Source: Bacilli bacterium (GTDB lineage Bacteria; Bacillota_I; Bacilli_A; RF39; UBA660). From it: a stretch of DNA of 49,990 nucleotides. The notes beneath the pieces are model-generated. The model did not search any database, was not told where the DNA came from, and worked only from the letters and a program-made list of their open reading frames with translations. How positions within the stretch are numbered: position 1 is the stretch's first letter; every line of letters starts with the position of its first letter. The stretch lies in the NCBI GenBank assembly GCA_022795155.1, contig JAAWGF010000009.1, forward strand, positions 1 through 49,990, written 5' to 3'. Shown here in pieces: positions 1 to 35,833 of the stretch. The translations under genes were made by a program, and so were the position numbers.

Positions 1-636
1 AATCAAAAATTTTTGATTAATACTATAAAAAAACCTGTTGATACACATTTTATTGAGCATAAAAAATTCCGTGCTAGAACTAAAACTGTTAAAGAAAAAA
101 GAGAGATTAGTCAAAGTAAACTATATATAGGATTTAAATGTGATAAATTAAGTTTATTTGAAAAACAATATGTTGCAAACATTTATTCATTTATCTTAGG
201 TGGTGGACCAGATTCAAAATTATTTAAATCAGTTAGAGAAAAAAATAGTTTATGTTATTATGTTTCTTCGTCATTTAAAAGTGTAAGCAATTTATTAATT
301 ATTACATCTGGTATTGATAAAAAAGATTATCGTAAAGCCGTTAATTTAATAAAAAAAGAAGTTAAAAGTATGACGAATGGAGATTTTGATGATAGTGATA
401 TTAAAAAAGCCATTGTTACTTATATAAATAGCTTAGAGGCATCACTAGATTCACCAGCCTCAATTATTAGCAGTTATGTTAGCAATGAATATTTAGGCTT
501 TGATTTAATGGATGAGCGAATTAAAAAAATAGAAACTGTAACTAAAGATATGATTATAAATTTTTCTAAAAAGATTCATTTAGATACAATCTTTTTATTA
601 GAAGGAGGGGATATGGGTGAAACAGAAGAAATTTAG
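1..636 (+). CDS. yfmF: M16-family peptidase-like protein YfmF, C-terminal part (5' end outside window)
   Basis: The reading frame is open from base 1, so the gene starts upstream of the window and only about 210 residues of the C-terminal half are present. The text resembles the C-terminal lobe of M16 (pitrilysin-like) proteins: an LGGGPDSKLF segment followed by VREKNSLCYY, the usual glycine-rich turn and R-x-K-x-x-L-x-Y motif. Members of the YfmF group lack the zinc site and pair with an active M16 subunit. The next gene, which does have the HxxEH site, overlaps it by 20 bp, as expected for such a pair. In Bacilli the pair is annotated as EF-P 5-aminopentanol modification-associated. The N-terminal half and true start cannot be judged. 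Confidence 0.8.
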   Translation, partial: NQKFLINTIKKPVDTHFIEHKKFRARTKTVKEKREISQSKLYIGFKCDKLSLFEKQYVANIYSFILGGGPDSKLFKSVREKNSLCYYVSSSFKSVSNLLIITSGIDKKDYRKAVNLIKKEVKSMTNGDFDDSDIKKAIVTYINSLEASLDSPASIISSYVSNEYLGFDLMDERIKKIETVTKDMIINFSKKIHLDTIFLLEGGDMGETEEI

Positions 637-2043: not shown

Positions 2044-2256
2044 GTGGAAATATTATTAATTACAGTATCAATTTTACTTATTGCCATTGCTCTTTTACAA
2101 AGTGGTAAATCAGAAGGTGCCTCTAATGTAATTTCTGGTGGTAATGATAATTTGTTTGCTAATAGAAAAGAACGTGGTGGAGAATTATTTATAACTAGAT
2201 TTACGGCTGTTTTAGGTATTGCCTTCTTCGTAATTTGTATTATTATGGGAAGATAA
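2044..2256 (+). CDS. secG: Preprotein translocase subunit SecG
   Basis: A 70-residue SecG: an N-terminal membrane helix (about residues 3-17), a cytosolic QSGKSEGASNVISGG stretch with the conserved glycine/serine-rich motif, and a second helix near residues 50-68. Length is normal for Firmicutes. SecG associates with SecYE in the inner membrane and helps SecA-driven protein export. The GTG start at 2044 is chosen because AGGAGG lies 7-8 bases upstream. It is transcribed alone; the rnr and smpB genes that often follow secG in Bacilli are absent here, and a convergent gene lies downstream. Confidence 0.92.
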   Translation: MEILLITVSILLIAIALLQSGKSEGASNVISGGNDNLFANRKERGGELFITRFTAVLGIAFFVICIIMGR

Positions 2257-2283
2257 AATTTAATAGAAGAAAAGAACTTATCT

Positions 2284-2315
2284 AAAAAAGAAACTTCAAT
2301 GTTTCTTTTTTTTCT
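2284..2315. terminator. Bidirectional terminator between secG and the convergent yfhO-like gene
   Basis: A long A-tract stem AAAAAAGAAAC pairs with GTTTCTTTTTT around TTCAAT. The A and T tracts allow it to work in both directions, which suits the convergent arrangement; it overlaps the 3' end of the minus-strand gene. Confidence 0.75.
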
Positions 2316-4833
2316 TTATGATATTTATCAAGATTAATAGTCCTAATGATAGGCTAGAGATAAATACTCCCATTTTTAATTTTGGTATCTTATAAATTAT
2401 CTTGATATTATGTGTACCACTATTTATATCAAAGCTTAAGAAACTATTAGCTATTTTAAAAGTTTCAACTTCTTTATCATCAATGTAAACTTTAAGACCT
2501 TCATCAAAATTTAACGACGTAAAGACGGTTTTATCATTGTCGACTTCCATAACACCTTCAATAAGACTATTATTAAAATTTGTAATTTGTAAGGCATTAT
2601 TATTAGTAGTTTGATAGAATTGTTCAAACTTATCACTATCCATTTGATAGGCGAGAACAATAACATTACTAATATTAGAATTAAGATAAAATTCTAACTT
2701 AGCTTCTTTATTTTTTTCAAAATAACCAGCATCTACAACATATGGTTCATTAGTTGTAATTGCGTAGTGTTTATTATTAAATATAAAGCTATTTAAATCA
2801 TAGTTATATACATATAAATAAACATTACTATTTTTAAGAGTATTAATATTAATAATAACTCTGTTAGTTTCTTCAAAATTTAAATTAGTAACAATGTCTC
2901 CTAACAAATTGTAATTATTCTGATTATCATCATTAGAAAGTGGTAATTTAACTAGTATATCATCAATTCCAGTTGCTTTTTGAACAAAATCTTGCTGATT
3001 TAAAAAGGGACTAAAATTATCATTGCTCCAATTTTTAATATTTTTTGATACAGCAAAAGCAAGTGGTAAAAAATATTTGTTTCTATAAATCTCATAGTAA
3101 TTAATTGTATCAATTTGTTCATAAAAACGGTTTTGATTTTCTAAACCAATCAAATATTTAACTGACATAATACTATTATAGATAGGGGTATTTTGCTTAT
3201 AATAATAACTATTTACATTGTTGCCAGGCATACCCAATTCCTTTTGATTTTTAGCCATCTGTTCATAAGCAACTGATGAAAAAACAGATATACCATTATA
3301 ATTATACCAAGCGCCATCATTTAAAGTTTGATTAAAACTCTTTTCAATTCTATAAAAGCTATTATCTCGTTCTTTAACACTTTCAATAGCTGAAGCAGCT
3401 GATACATAGTTATCCATAAAAGTATTTTTATTATGATCTATTGACCAATTTTCATTGATATTTAAAATAATATCGCTAAAAATTATAAAAAGAAGTATAT
3501 ATTTAACAGTATTACTATGATTAAACTTATATGTTATAAAAATTGTAAGCATTATTAAGAGAATCAACATATTTACTTCAAAAGCAAAATTAGATAAAAA
3601 ATTAATATGTTCTAAATAAAATAGGGATATAATTACTAATCCAAAAATAATTAAAGCATATCTAATTTTTAAAAAGTTAATTTTATTTAAAGAATAAAAT
3701 GCCACAATATTAATTATAAAAACATATATAAATGAAAAACGAAATGGTAGGTCATTAGGTGTATGAAATCCATGCCAAATAAAGTCGAGTGGTACATAAA
3801 GAAAACTTATAAATAGAAAAAAAATAAATATAGTAATCATTAACTTGTTTTTTAATTTAATATTACTATTAAAAAAGAAAGCAATTAGTAAAACGAAAAT
3901 AGCAATTCCACTAGATATATTAGGTAAATAATATTCTTGAGAAGAAAAAACAATTGAATTAACTAAAGAAAAATGATTAGCTAAAAAATAGAGTGGATTA
4001 AAGTTAAAATTTTTATAAAAAGTAAAACTATCGCCAGTTGCTGAAATACTACTCAAGGAACTTACATATGGTAATAGCATAAATCCAGCTAATCCGCCAG
4101 CTATTAAAGAACTAATTGTAAATAGTAATATTTTTTTTATTAATTCTTTTCTTGAAAGATCATTTTTAAAGATAATATAAATGATAAAAAATAGACAAGC
4201 GAAAAGACAAATCATATAAGTTATAAAATAGTTGGCAAGAATGCTTAAAAATAATGATAAAATATAAAGATTAATTTTGTTTTCATCAATTAGTTTTTTA
4301 ATCCCTAATATAACAAGTGGTAAAAATATTAATCCATCTAACCACATAATATTCCAATAAAAAGCTACAAAATAACTAGAGAATGCGTAGGATAGACCAA
4401 ATATCGTGGTTGTAATAGAATTTTTGTTAAAAAATTTATTTAAAAAATAAGTCATAATCGCACTAGCAGTAATTATTTTTAAAGCAATTATAATTGAGAA
4501 AGCTGTAACAATATTTTCACGATTAAATAAGAACATAATAATATTAAAAGGGCTAGATAAATAATTGTAAAAATTTCTAAAAAAAGGTAATCCTAAACCA
4601 GTACTAAAAGAATAAATTAAATTATCACCTGCCATAACTTTGTCATAGAGTTCTGCTAGTAATGGTCCATATTGGTGATAAAAATCAACTGTTAATAATG
4701 TATTTTTACCAATGGGAATAATACTTTTTAAAGCATAGATAATTAAAAACAAAAAGGTAGATATTCCGATTGTTAACCATACATATTTATTATTTTTTAA
4801 ATTTGTTTTAATTTTATTTTTTAAATTATTCAT
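2296..4833 (-). CDS. yfhO: YfhO family multi-pass membrane protein (GT-C-like glycosyltransferase)
   Basis: About 845 residues, the only gene on the minus strand. It has about a dozen hydrophobic helices in the first two thirds, a first extracytoplasmic loop with the DFYHQYGP motif after helix 1, then a soluble C-terminal domain and a last helix before a lysine-rich tail. This architecture is that of YfhO proteins, GT-C-type enzymes that use undecaprenyl-phosphate sugars to glycosylate lipoteichoic acid or related surface polymers in Bacillus and Listeria; the exact acceptor here is unknown. An upstream in-frame GTG at 4839 is possible, but the ATG at 4833 has the better-spaced AAGGTAGG. It is a single-gene unit ending in the shared terminator. 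Confidence 0.85.
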   Translation of the reverse strand: MNNLKNKIKTNLKNNKYVWLTIGISTFLFLIIYALKSIIPIGKNTLLTVDFYHQYGPLLAELYDKVMAGDNLIYSFSTGLGLPFFRNFYNYLSSPFNIIMFLFNRENIVTAFSIIIALKIITASAIMTYFLNKFFNKNSITTTIFGLSYAFSSYFVAFYWNIMWLDGLIFLPLVILGIKKLIDENKINLYILSLFLSILANYFITYMICLFACLFFIIYIIFKNDLSRKELIKKILLFTISSLIAGGLAGFMLLPYVSSLSSISATGDSFTFYKNFNFNPLYFLANHFSLVNSIVFSSQEYYLPNISSGIAIFVLLIAFFFNSNIKLKNKLMITIFIFFLFISFLYVPLDFIWHGFHTPNDLPFRFSFIYVFIINIVAFYSLNKINFLKIRYALIIFGLVIISLFYLEHINFLSNFAFEVNMLILLIMLTIFITYKFNHSNTVKYILLFIIFSDIILNINENWSIDHNKNTFMDNYVSAASAIESVKERDNSFYRIEKSFNQTLNDGAWYNYNGISVFSSVAYEQMAKNQKELGMPGNNVNSYYYKQNTPIYNSIMSVKYLIGLENQNRFYEQIDTINYYEIYRNKYFLPLAFAVSKNIKNWSNDNFSPFLNQQDFVQKATGIDDILVKLPLSNDDNQNNYNLLGDIVTNLNFEETNRVIININTLKNSNVYLYVYNYDLNSFIFNNKHYAITTNEPYVVDAGYFEKNKEAKLEFYLNSNISNVIVLAYQMDSDKFEQFYQTTNNNALQITNFNNSLIEGVMEVDNDKTVFTSLNFDEGLKVYIDDKEVETFKIANSFLSFDINSGTHNIKIIYKIPKLKMGVFISSLSLGLLILINIIKKKKKH

Positions 4834-31354: not shown

Positions 31355-32836
31355 ATGAATGGTTTTATTAGAATTAGATTTGATGAAAAGAAAGAATCTT
31401 ATAAACTTGAATCGGCGCAAGGTTATTATGATTGTGATTATATTTTTATGATTGAATTGACTAGTCCGAAGTTATATAAAGATATTGTTGCTGATAAGAA
31501 AAAAATCAATAAATATTTATTGAAAGATTATAATAAAAATTTAGTGCAATTTGAAGATGAGTTTGCAGAAGAAATTGAAATAAATAAAAAATATTTTGAT
31601 AATCAATTTGATTTGTTTTCAGATAGTAATTATATAGAAATAGATGCTTCATTTGCGGAAGTAAGTGATTATCTTAAATTGAATCCAGAATTAAAAATGA
31701 AAAAAATTTTATTTGCTAATCCTTTGGATTTAGAATATACAACTTTACTAGAAGTGAAAAGATATTTAGGTGGGGTTAACAATGTTTATTTTAAAGTTGA
31801 TGGAAATAATGAAGCAATTACAATCGAAGATTATGAAAAGACGGTAAATAAAATACAGGATATTTTAATGAATATTAAGCAGTATAACTATAGCCCATTT
31901 GAGAGAGTTTTACATGCTTATGATTTAGTAAGGGATAAACAATATAAAGAAGAAGATATTGTTGAAAAAGTAACTGTTTCACGTGATTTAACATCCGCTT
32001 TATTAGGTGATAAAATTGTTTGTGGTGGCTATGCTAATATTTTTAAAAGCATTTTAAATCATCTTGGCTTGTCAGCTATAGTACATAAATTAAATGGTAA
32101 TGGTGAAACTAGCAATCATGCTATTGTTTTAGCTTATATTAAAGATGATAAATATGATATCGATGGTGTATACGATTTTGATGTAACAGCTGATAGTAAA
32201 AAGAATGATAATAATTTCTTTAATAAATATGCTGGTTTTGCTAAAACAAGAGCGCAAATGATGAATATATATCATGGAAAATTTAGCGATGATACTTTTT
32301 CACTCTTGTCAACTGATTTAGTAACTTGTTTTGAAAATTGTTATAATGAATACGGAATTGAGGGAATACTTGATCAGTTACTTAAACCAATTAACAAATT
32401 ATCAAATCTAATTGAAGATAAACCACTTTTAGATATTGTTGATCTTATTTATGCGGATCAAAGTTACATCGATAAAATCATAGACTATTTGGGAAGATAT
32501 GATATAATTTTAAATAACATGCTTGATGCTGATATATTTTTGGAAATGCTATATAATGTTAGAAAAAACGAATATTATGAAATCCCTAGTAAATATCCTT
32601 TTAGTATGAATGCTTTTCATGAAGCATTAGAAAAATCAAACTTTGCTTTTAAAGATGACGCTATAATAAATATGTTTCAGGAAATGTTCAATATATCAAT
32701 AGTAAAATCTATGGAAGATTTAAATAATAAGATAGGTAGTTGTATGGACAAGTTTAATCTAGAAGAAAAAATTTTAGGTGTTACACTTGCTAAATCGCTA
32801 AAATTAGTATATGAAAAAGAGAAAAATGATTTATGA
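31355..32836 (+). CDS. Transglutaminase-like protein
   Basis: 493 residues. The middle holds a transglutaminase-like fold with Cys223 in KIVCGGYANIF, His255 in SNHAIVLAYI and Asp276 in VYDFDVTAD, the expected order of the papain-like triad. The approximately 210-residue N-terminal and 190-residue C-terminal parts are not recognised. There is no signal peptide, so a cytoplasmic protein is likely, unlike secreted wall transglutaminases. Own promoter and terminator: a monocistronic unit. Substrate unknown. Confidence 0.75.
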   Translation: MNGFIRIRFDEKKESYKLESAQGYYDCDYIFMIELTSPKLYKDIVADKKKINKYLLKDYNKNLVQFEDEFAEEIEINKKYFDNQFDLFSDSNYIEIDASFAEVSDYLKLNPELKMKKILFANPLDLEYTTLLEVKRYLGGVNNVYFKVDGNNEAITIEDYEKTVNKIQDILMNIKQYNYSPFERVLHAYDLVRDKQYKEEDIVEKVTVSRDLTSALLGDKIVCGGYANIFKSILNHLGLSAIVHKLNGNGETSNHAIVLAYIKDDKYDIDGVYDFDVTADSKKNDNNFFNKYAGFAKTRAQMMNIYHGKFSDDTFSLLSTDLVTCFENCYNEYGIEGILDQLLKPINKLSNLIEDKPLLDIVDLIYADQSYIDKIIDYLGRYDIILNNMLDADIFLEMLYNVRKNEYYEIPSKYPFSMNAFHEALEKSNFAFKDDAIINMFQEMFNISIVKSMEDLNNKIGSCMDKFNLEEKILGVTLAKSLKLVYEKEKNDL

Positions 32837-32853
32837 AATAAATAACTACAATA

Positions 32854-32880
32854 AAGTGATAGATTTTTGTCGCTTTTTTT
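32854..32880 (+). terminator. Rho-independent terminator
   Basis: AAGTGA pairs with TCGCTT (one G-U) around a 10-base loop, followed by T7. Confidence 0.6.
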
Positions 32881-32905: not shown

Positions 32906-33964
32906 ATGACAAAAAAAAGAAAATTTAAGAAGGGTGTTATTCTAAAATTATTATTTTTATTAGCAGTTTTCATTTTAATATTATTAGCTATTGTTTTTAT
33001 ATTCAAAAAAGTAACAGCAATTAAATATAAAGAATATACCAAAACATTGAATTATATGGATACGGTTATTGATATTAAAATTTATAGTAATAATGAAAAT
33101 GAGGCAAATACAATTATAAGTGAAATTGAAAAAATTTATAAACATTATCATGAATTAACTGATAGATATAATAAATATGATGACATAAATAATGTTTATA
33201 TAATTAATAATACTAAAGAGATTGCCCAGTTAGATATTGATAAAGACCTATATGAAATTTTAAATTATAGCGTTAATTGGTATTATAAGAGTAATGAATT
33301 GTTTAATATTAATATTGGTAATTTAACTGATTTATGGAAAAAGTATCGTGATAATAAAACAGGAATCCCAACTAATGATGAATTATATAGATTATCCGGA
33401 TTAGATATTAAACATATTGTTTTATACAATGATAATAAGATTTTAACGGGTAATGTTAATTTAGACTTAGGGGGAATTGCTAAGGGCTATGCAACCGAAG
33501 TTGCTCATCACTATTTAAAAAGTATTGGTTTTGAAAGATATTTAATTAATGCTGGGGGAACTGTTTTAGCAGGTATTAATTCGGAAGGCAATAAATATAA
33601 AGTCGGACTTCAAGATCCTGATAATGCTTCGGCAATTTTAAAAGATGGGGATAAAGAAATTAAATTAAATTTATCTAATGCGATTATTACAAGTAGTGGT
33701 GGTTATGAACGTTTTTATGAATTTAATGGTGTTAGATATCATCATATTCTAAACCCTAATACGAAAATGCCAGCTAACAATATGAAAAGTGTTTCGGTTA
33801 TTACTGATGATGCTATGCTAGGCGATGTAATGTCCACAACTTTATTCTTGATGAGTGTTGAAGATGGGCAAAAGTTTATTGAAAACTTTGATAATGTCGA
33901 AGCAATTTGGTATACAAACGATAACAAAGTAATAAAATCATCTGGCGTACAAAAATATGAATAA
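32906..33964 (+). CDS. apbE: FAD:protein FMN transferase (ApbE/FmnB-like)
   Basis: 352 residues. An N-terminal hydrophobic anchor (about residues 11-32) precedes the ApbE domain: NYMDTVIDIKIY, GNLTDLWKKYR, the signature LDLGGIAKGYATEVA at about residues 188-202, GGTVLAG, and the C-terminal HHILNPNTKMPANN and ITDDAMLGDVMSTTLF. ApbE attaches FMN from FAD covalently to a threonine or serine in extracytoplasmic FMN-binding proteins. The downstream FMN-binding lipoprotein is the evident target. It overlaps the next gene by 8 bp. Confidence 0.92.
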   Translation: MTKKRKFKKGVILKLLFLLAVFILILLAIVFIFKKVTAIKYKEYTKTLNYMDTVIDIKIYSNNENEANTIISEIEKIYKHYHELTDRYNKYDDINNVYIINNTKEIAQLDIDKDLYEILNYSVNWYYKSNELFNINIGNLTDLWKKYRDNKTGIPTNDELYRLSGLDIKHIVLYNDNKILTGNVNLDLGGIAKGYATEVAHHYLKSIGFERYLINAGGTVLAGINSEGNKYKVGLQDPDNASAILKDGDKEIKLNLSNAIITSSGGYERFYEFNGVRYHHILNPNTKMPANNMKSVSVITDDAMLGDVMSTTLFLMSVEDGQKFIENFDNVEAIWYTNDNKVIKSSGVQKYE

Positions 33965-34328
33965 AAGCGATATAAAACTTATTATAATAATTATATTAAT
34001 AGCTATCATAGTTTTATCTATGATAGCTATTCTAAATGATAACTCAAATAAACAAGCATTAGTCTATTATGATAATAAACTTGTTTTAACAATTGATTTA
34101 AGCGAAACAGAAAAAAAGGAATATTTGGTTGATGGTTATAATGGTGTTGTAAAAATTATCGCTTTAGACGGTAAAATAAAAGTCGATGAAGAGGATAGCC
34201 CGTTACATTTATGTAGTAAGCAAGGTTTTATTGAACATTCTTATGAGACAATTGTTTGTTTACCAAATAAGGTAGTAATTAAAATTGTTTCATCTAAAGA
34301 TAATGATTTAGATACTATATTGAGGTGA
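33957..34328 (+). CDS. NusG domain II protein (EetA-like)
   Basis: 123 residues. One N-terminal membrane helix (about residues 6-27), then a small extracytoplasmic NusG_II-type beta domain: ALVYYDNKLVLTIDL, GYNGVVKIIALDGKIKV and the closing CSKQGFIEHSYETIVCLPNKVVI with two cysteines. Proteins of this type are EetA of flavin-based extracellular electron transfer in Listeria and related Firmicutes. It lies between ApbE and a Gx-transporter gene, which is the same neighbourhood. Confidence 0.82.
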   Translation: MNKSDIKLIIIIILIAIIVLSMIAILNDNSNKQALVYYDNKLVLTIDLSETEKKEYLVDGYNGVVKIIALDGKIKVDEEDSPLHLCSKQGFIEHSYETIVCLPNKVVIKIVSSKDNDLDTILR

Positions 34329-34332
34329 ATTG

Positions 34333-34836
34333 ATGGAAATAAAAAAAATAAGCCGTATATCTATGCTTTTGGCTTTATCCGTGGTTTTAAATATACTTGA
34401 AAGTTTTATTCCATTATTTAATGGAATAATTCCAGGCTTTAAATTAGGTTTAGCTAATATTGTTATTTTATTGGTTATTTATACATATAGTTTTAAGGAT
34501 GCTTTACTTATATCCCTATTAAGAGTTTTTTTAGTAGGAATACTTAGAACAGGATTATTTAGTATGAGTTTTTTCTTTAGTTTAGGTGGGTCAATTATAA
34601 GTATAATTGTTATGTACTTAGCTAAAAAAATTACAAAATTATCAATTATAGGGGTAAGTATTATGGGCTCAGTTAGTCATACATTAGGGCAAATTATAGT
34701 AGCAATCATATTTTATAATATAAACATGATTTATTATACTGCATGGGCTTTGCTATTATCTTTACCAACTGGTATTTTAGTAGGATACTTAACCAAAGAA
34801 ATAAAAAAAACATTAGATTTATCTATTAAATGGTGA
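34333..34836 (+). CDS. Gx transporter / HepS-I family membrane protein (EetB-like)
   Basis: About 167 residues with five or six hydrophobic helices. RISMLLALSVVLNILESFIP and GFKLGLANIVILLVIY are typical of the Hpre_diP_synt_I (Gx transporter) family, predicted S-component-like integral membrane proteins. In Listeria the EetB protein of the electron-transfer locus belongs to this group. ATG 34333 preferred over TTG 34330, behind GAGGTGAATTG. Operon member with apbE and the NusG_II gene. Confidence 0.82.
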   Translation: MEIKKISRISMLLALSVVLNILESFIPLFNGIIPGFKLGLANIVILLVIYTYSFKDALLISLLRVFLVGILRTGLFSMSFFFSLGGSIISIIVMYLAKKITKLSIIGVSIMGSVSHTLGQIIVAIIFYNINMIYYTAWALLLSLPTGILVGYLTKEIKKTLDLSIKW

Positions 34837-34853
34837 TTGTTAATATAGAATTA

Positions 34854-34882
34854 TTGAAAAATTTATTTAATTATGATACAAT
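34854..34882 (+). promoter_or_regulatory. SigA-type promoter with extended -10
   Basis: TTGAAA, 17-bp spacer, TGATACAAT, directly ahead of the FMN-binding lipoprotein gene, so this gene can be transcribed apart from the apbE operon. Confidence 0.7.
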
Positions 34883-34907
34883 TTAAAAGAAGATAGGAAG
34901 GGATCAA

Positions 34908-35396
34908 ATGAAAAAATTAAAAAATTTACTTTTATGTTTTAGTTTAATTTCGATTTTATTTTTTACAGGATGTGAAGAAGTTCCTGAAAAAGGAATATAT
35001 AAAGAAGGGACTTATTTTGGTTATGCCCAAAGTGAATCTTATGGTTCGATTTTAACAACTACAGCTGTTGTTTACGTTGATGATTTGGGTATGATAAAAT
35101 CAGTTTTTATTGATTCAACATATATTAAAACGCCAGGTACATTATCAACAAAAAAACAACTTGGTGATGAATACGCAATGAAATCTTCTTCAGCTAGTAT
35201 GGGTAATATTCCAGGTGGAGCTGAATGGTATGAACAAGTTGAAACTTTAGAAAATGAGATTGTTAAACAACAAGGTTTAAATTGGATTAAATGGACTGAT
35301 GATACAAAAACAAAAACAGATTCTGTTGCTGGGGTTACAATTGAAATCGATGATATGTATACAGCTGTTAATATGGCATTAAATAACGCAAAATAA
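34908..35396 (+). CDS. FMN-binding domain lipoprotein (PplA-like)
   Basis: 162 residues. Signal peptide with a lipobox ending FFTGC (Cys22), then one FMN_bind domain from about residue 33. The flavinylation motif DSVAGVTIEI, Thr144, fits D-x-x-(A/S)-G-x-T and is preceded by a glycine-rich NIPGGAEWYEQ. Only one FMN_bind domain is present, whereas Listeria PplA has two. Anchored on the outer membrane face, it would shuttle electrons as covalent FMN after ApbE modification. Own promoter; strong terminator behind. Confidence 0.88.
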   Translation: MKKLKNLLLCFSLISILFFTGCEEVPEKGIYKEGTYFGYAQSESYGSILTTTAVVYVDDLGMIKSVFIDSTYIKTPGTLSTKKQLGDEYAMKSSSASMGNIPGGAEWYEQVETLENEIVKQQGLNWIKWTDDTKTKTDSVAGVTIEIDDMYTAVNMALNNAK

Positions 35397-35398
35397 TG

Positions 35399-35443
35399 AA
35401 AAACATAGAATTTTTGATATCTAAAATTTCTATGTTTTTTTTA
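35399..35443 (+). terminator. Strong rho-independent terminator
   Basis: AAACATAGAATTTT pairs with AAAATTTCTATGTTT with a single-base irregularity and runs into T8. Confidence 0.85.
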
Positions 35444-35497: not shown

Positions 35498-35833
35498 ATG
35501 TTTGATAACTTTATTACTTCAACTTTATTTTTATTAGTTTTGTGTTTACTCTTTATTATTGACACAATATTAGGCGTTTTAATTGGTACTAAAGAGATTG
35601 GATTTAATTTAAAAAAATTTTTATATGGTCTTTTAAAAGGTGGAATAGCTGCTTTATGTGTTATAGGCTTTTGTTTTGTTATAGAGATAACACCTATTAT
35701 ACTAAAAAGAATAGATATAGAATTGCCAAGTGATATAATAACGCTTACAGAATTTATGGGTGTTACTTTTACTGCATATAAGAAATATGCTTTAGACTGT
35801 TTTGAAAAGATTAAAAAAATATTTGGAGAATGA
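35498..35833 (+). CDS. Holin-like small membrane protein
   Basis: 111 residues. Two strong membrane segments, about residues 6-28 (TLFLLVLCLLFIIDTILGVLIG) and 45-70, with a DTILGVL motif near the end of the first, and an amphipathic charged C-terminus. The layout and the D-T-x-x-G motif recall phage toxin-secretion/lysis holins (Holin_4 type). No endolysin or phage gene is adjacent, so it is either a domesticated relic or an unrelated small membrane protein. GGAGG site; its own terminator. Confidence 0.55.
   Translation: MFDNFITSTLFLLVLCLLFIIDTILGVLIGTKEIGFNLKKFLYGLLKGGIAALCVIGFCFVIEITPIILKRIDIELPSDIITLTEFMGVTFTAYKKYALDCFEKIKKIFGE

Follow-up and report, generated by a model that had tools for sequence, protein, structure and literature searches.

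One known relative of the locus analyzed here is the flavin-based extracellular electron transfer (EET) locus of Listeria monocytogenes, which consists of ndh2, dmkA, dmkB, eetA, eetB, fmnA, fmnB, and pplA. In Listeria, EetB binds FAD and is required for the FAD supply to the ApbE-like protein FmnB, and the deletion of eetA resulted in no EET phenotype (PMC9973259). The eetA and eetB genes are colocalized in 3,328 genomes, and eetB is most often colocalized with Rnf and EET systems, Rnf accounting for 572 Clostridia genomes (PMC9973259). In addition, multi-flavinylated RnfG proteins have been proposed to provide a second electron route from Rnf to extracytosolic acceptors (PMC8238504). The locus in this study is similar to the Listeria locus in holding apbE (fmnB), eetA, eetB, and an FMN_bind lipoprotein, and a preliminary description regarded it as a reduced core of that locus. 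Our analysis led to a different reading, to which we assign a probability of roughly 0.8: the locus is an extracytosolic ApbE/EetAB flavinylation cassette for an Rnf complex encoded on another contig and for one FMN lipoprotein.

The window, namely the whole stretch of 49,990 nucleotides analyzed (contig JAAWGF010000009.1 of a Bacilli bacterium, assembly GCA_022795155.1), contains the four genes on the forward strand at positions 32,906–35,396. The first, apbE (32,906–33,964), encodes a membrane-anchored FAD:protein FMN transferase of 352 aa (Pfam ApbE, 215.4 bits, E 1.3e-63); it is followed by an eetA-like gene (33,957–34,328) for a single-TM NusG_II domain protein of 123 aa (95.1 bits, E 3.6e-27), and an eetB-like gene (34,333–34,836, with an alternative TTG start at 34,330) for an ECF S-type membrane subunit of 167 aa, a predicted FAD exporter (Hpre_diP_synt_I, E 1.6e-36). 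These three genes overlap or abut, the overlap between apbE and the eetA-like gene being 8 bases. The fourth gene (34,908–35,396) encodes an FMN_bind lipoprotein of 162 aa. The 5' edge of the cassette is set by the terminator-like hairpin of the upstream gene (32,853–32,876, forward strand; −10.3 kcal/mol, z −2.96), and an intrinsic terminator, an A+T-rich hairpin followed by a T run, lies 3' of the lipoprotein gene (35,398–35,442, forward strand; −14.3 kcal/mol, z −5.33). The four-gene arrangement of the preliminary description is therefore real: the profile searches confirm its first three members, including the NusG_II and Gx-transporter assignments, and the lipoprotein is supported by its relatives, by homology to PDB entries, and by a modeled structure.

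Concerning the flanks, the gene directly 5' of apbE (31,355–32,836) encodes a protein of 493 aa that weakly resembles transglutaminases and was also found at a locus of the same genus (L034); a comparison with a look-alike in the rnf operon revealed no kinship between the two. On the 3' side, a 111-aa holin-like membrane protein (35,498–35,833; 21.3 bits against Phage_holin_4_1, cut-off 22.2) occupies the same place in two other loci (L034 and L035).

The translation of apbE (PF02424) has a visible N-terminal hydrophobic anchor, as expected of an extracytosolic enzyme, and this is the sole ApbE found in the genome. The EetB-like protein (PF07456) adjoins the EetA-like protein (PF07009), as in a cassette, and also matches ECF_trnsprt just under the cut-off (E 1.1e-6). 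FAD export by this protein is predicted from its Listeria homologue. Since EetB is an FAD-exporting ECF subunit and the eetA deletion is without an EET phenotype, apbE, eetA, and eetB are best understood as the machinery of FMN attachment rather than as the electron path itself.

The lipoprotein scored 14.2 bits against FMN_bind (PF04205), below the gathering cut-off of 22; the preliminary assignment to this family is supported through its relatives and through solved structures. One relative (from genome G033) scored 28.2 bits, above the cut-off, and 32 of the 42 aligned relatives matched FMN_bind at E<=0.01 (best 1e-6). The profile of the family matched PDB 2kzx (3.2e-16) and, weakly, domain 1 of flavinylated CbFMN4 (8p2b, 0.082). 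An AlphaFold2 model with a mean pLDDT of 91.7 was superimposed by VIA-align on 3o6u, an FMN-bind domain protein (PMC10339131), with Z 11.0 and rmsd 2.4 over 108 residues, the next row having 6.2; a Foldseek search with the model gave no match at E<=0.001. In a profile–profile comparison with RnfG-like domains, 24 columns were aligned, covering the C-terminal motif region only (probability 74%). Judged from profiles and the model, the lipoprotein is a member of the FMN_bind family despite its sub-cut-off score, and it has a single domain with a single motif, as had been noted.

The lipobox FTGC (Cys22) has a cysteine that is kept in all 42 aligned lipoproteins. The putative flavinylation motif, D138-S-V-A-G-V-T144 (35,319–35,339, forward strand), ends in Thr144, the predicted FMN attachment residue. 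The motif claimed earlier is thus present in its Asp, Gly, and Thr but not in its canonical letters: compared with D-x-x-[S/T]-G-A-[S/T], Ser/Thr is replaced by Ala, and Ala by Val. At the position before this Thr, 38 of the 42 sequences have Val or Cys instead of the published Ala. As the motif is non-canonical, and an Ala-to-Val change at the same place in a Klebsiella reductase cut flavinylation to about 50% (PMC12052999), flavinylation at Thr144 is likely but not certain.

The same departures from the canonical motif, together with the sub-cut-off score of the window copy, would suit a lipoprotein that is redox-inactive, is itself unflavinylated, and serves Rnf or ApbE as an assembly or accessory factor. 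We consider this unlikely, although it is the most durable of the alternatives, because the motif Asp and the motif Thr are each kept in 41 of the 42 aligned lipoproteins while the neighboring positions vary, the modeled fold is that of an FMN_bind domain, and the sequence AGVT is also found in an RnfG-like domain of the same genome.

The preliminary description also credited the lipoprotein gene with its own promoter. A promoter-like site (TTGAAA-17-TACAAT) lies at 34,854–34,882 on the forward strand, and in 28 of 40 related loci the 100 bases that precede the lipoprotein gene contain a site of the form TTGNNN-16..18-TA[TC]AAT, compared with 0.64 expected from first-order random sequences. 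The conservation of this separate promoter suggests that the lipoprotein may be made at a level different from, and perhaps higher than, that of the cassette enzymes.

The whole genome, with 1.43 Mb on 45 contigs and a completeness of about 90%, was then searched one protein family at a time. Besides the sub-threshold lipoprotein, FMN_bind matched only one gene, at positions 2183–3955 of another contig (C21), which encodes a 590-aa fusion of RnfD followed by two FMN_bind (RnfG-like) domains. This fusion carries DxxxG[A/V]T motifs, with AGVT in its first RnfG-like domain, and is predicted to be a flavinylatable client of ApbE. It is encoded on C21 together with rnfC, rnfE, rnfA, and a short rnfB. 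On a further contig (C19), the genome's single ECF-T gene and two ECF ATPase (ECF-A) genes were found together.

Several features of this rnf operon were observed in passing. At L033, 6075–6445, a Cys-rich frame of 36 aa comes before an RnfB protein of 86 aa, which has a TM segment and an FeS domain and no ferredoxin domains; similarly short RnfB proteins of 85–94 aa recur across the family. A transglutaminase-like frame of 276 aa, for which Pfam gave no match, lies between rnfD and rnfE (L033, 4040–4870; also L158 and L159) and is confined to the genus among the rnf operons read.

We examined the co-occurrence of these components across the family, in 37 genomes. EetA was found in 11 of them, including the genome of the window, and a strong ApbE in the same 11; FMN_bind was found in 10, all of them among the EetA genomes (Fisher 3e-8), although the family genomes are related and are not independent samples, so that such P values overstate the support. 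The RnfD–FMN_bind fusion, EetA, strong ApbE, and the lipoprotein (E below 1e-50) occur together in these 10 genomes. The exception, G003, has ApbE and EetA only; its assembly, of 170 contigs, reaches 81% completeness, and its contig breaks off immediately 3' of eetB. The flavinylation Thr of RnfD (ATPL/STPL) is kept in 10 of 10 cassette genomes, whereas in the four EetA-negative genomes sampled it is replaced or absent (Ser in G028, Val in G007, no such motif in G005 and G023), and RnfD has no C-terminal FMN_bind domains in any of these four. One of them, G005, has a weaker ApbE match (1.6e-33). As a side observation, the EetA-negative members keep an Rnf remnant composed of rnfC with 4Fe-4S motifs and rnfD; in G007, G005, and G023 (L149, L160, and L161), no rnfE, rnfA, rnfG, or rnfB was found beside it, and in G028 (L150) an rnfA-like gene is present with one of two cluster cysteines lost.

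The lipoprotein profile was also used to scan named genomes, yielding 80 loci. The order apbE–eetA–eetB–lipoprotein was found in 39 of them, with fewer than 150 bases before the lipoprotein gene in 33 of the 39; the two nearest records carry the labels uncultured Tenericutes and uncultured Bacilli. No physical linkage between the cassette and rnf exists in the genome of the window or in those family members that were read. Elsewhere, 11 loci from Clostridia or another Bacilli family (L130, L136) contain rnf genes at a distance of about 9 kb or less from the lipoprotein homologue, and most of these loci also hold apbE, eetA, and eetB; one example (L144) reads rnfC-D-G-E-A, lipoprotein-like gene, apbE, eetA, eetB. 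Therefore, the cassette is tied to Rnf by position in addition to co-occurrence. We also observed in that other Bacilli family two membrane genes at the positions of rnfE and rnfA (L049, 6614–7743; L050, 9659–10713; also L130 and L136), which have no Pfam family match and no conserved Cys motifs; no rnfB was seen in the rnf cluster at these loci.

With regard to the quinone pathway, the preliminary description noted that ndh2 and the demethylmenaquinone genes are missing from the locus, and genome-wide profile searches found none either. The quinone prenyltransferase family UbiA/MenA (PF01040) had no match in the genome, whereas all 14 control genomes matched, and no Ndh2-like protein was found among the Pyr_redox_2 matches, which comprise one protein resembling thioredoxin reductase, one FAD-dependent protein of 467 aa, and one partial match within a frame of 635 aa; as the genome is about 90% complete, an ndh2 or menaquinone gene may have been missed. 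These results bear on the reading of the locus as a reduced Listeria-type EET system, in which an NADH dehydrogenase and demethylmenaquinone would pass electrons to the FMN lipoprotein and on to extracellular acceptors. The apbE, eetA, eetB, and FMN_bind lipoprotein genes are indeed common to the Listeria locus (PMC9973259), but what is held in common is the flavinylation machinery. Since the quinone genes and ndh2 were not found, and an Rnf complex with flavinylation sites is present and co-occurs with the cassette, we regard a stripped-down locus for Listeria-type extracellular respiration as very improbable; the notable simplification of EET suggested earlier gives way to a flavinylation cassette unlinked from rnf. 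Equally improbable is a role of ApbE mainly as a secreted FAD pyrophosphatase of the Treponema Ftp type, scavenging flavin rather than transferring FMN, which would suit a small-genome, probably host-associated organism in which a search for riboflavin-transport genes elsewhere in the genome, proposed in the preliminary description, returned no RibU-like ECF S subunit (PF12822 matched EetB only), but which agrees poorly with the co-occurrence of ApbE with FMN_bind domains and the RnfD threonine.

Returning to the flavinylation cassette, the following mechanism may be proposed. EetB, together with the single ECF-T and the two ECF ATPases of the genome, would move FAD out of the cytosol, perhaps with the help of EetA, and the membrane-anchored ApbE would transfer the FMN half of FAD to threonines of its client proteins. 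One client would be the Rnf complex, through RnfD and its two fused RnfG-like domains; the other would be the last-encoded member of the cassette, the FMN_bind lipoprotein, expressed from its own promoter. Rnf would be the route of electrons across the membrane, and at the outer face electron exchange most likely takes place between the RnfG-like flavins and the lipoprotein. It is plausible that the lipoprotein would accept electrons from Rnf, possibly serving as an electron carrier that Rnf supplies and that needs no quinone. A more far-reaching scheme, which we put forward tentatively and think somewhat doubtful, is a quinone-free electron outlet in which electrons would pass from the RnfG-like flavins of Rnf to a lipoprotein that is abundant and carries a single FMN, its attachment site having a distinct Dxx[S/A/T]G[V/C]T motif that the partner ApbE recognizes, and Rnf would serve as both outlet and ion pump.

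These data move a locus resembling Listeria EET to energy conservation, with the cassette as a probable cofactor supply for a predicted flavinylated Rnf pump, and provide an uncultured small-genome gut lineage with a predicted flavinylated Rnf that includes an RnfD–RnfG–RnfG fusion. They also call for caution, as apbE–eetA–eetB with an FMN lipoprotein is insufficient alone to call EET. Further, the lipoprotein, which is conserved and has both a promoter of its own and a non-canonical motif, can be tested as a candidate flavin carrier that would cooperate with Rnf independently of quinones.

In comparison with the Listeria system, no ndh2, prenyltransferase, or quinone pathway was detected in this genome and Rnf is present; moreover, the window lipoprotein has one domain and one motif, whereas PplA has two flavinylation sites. 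The lipoprotein shares a single FMN_bind-type domain with CPE2226 (PDB 3o6u), which it resembles in predicted fold, and with 2kzx, which it resembles by sequence profile, but it differs from both in being a lipoprotein, in having a G[V/C]T motif, and in being encoded within an apbE–eetA–eetB cassette. There is also a likeness to the Rnf-associated eetA–eetB–apbE cassettes of Firmicutes (PMC9973259), with which the window shares the three genes, their families, and the tie to Rnf with flavinylated subunits (predicted here); in contrast to them, the window cassette is unlinked from rnf, its last gene encodes an FMN_bind lipoprotein of one domain and has a separate promoter, and the genome's RnfD carries two fused RnfG-like domains. 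As in the multi-flavinylated RnfG proteins (PMC8238504), Rnf bears additional FMN domains, but here two RnfG-like domains are placed on RnfD, and a lipoprotein of its own provides the further flavin domain. The locus in this study thus agrees with the former picture (PMC9973259) and represents a variant of the latter (PMC8238504).
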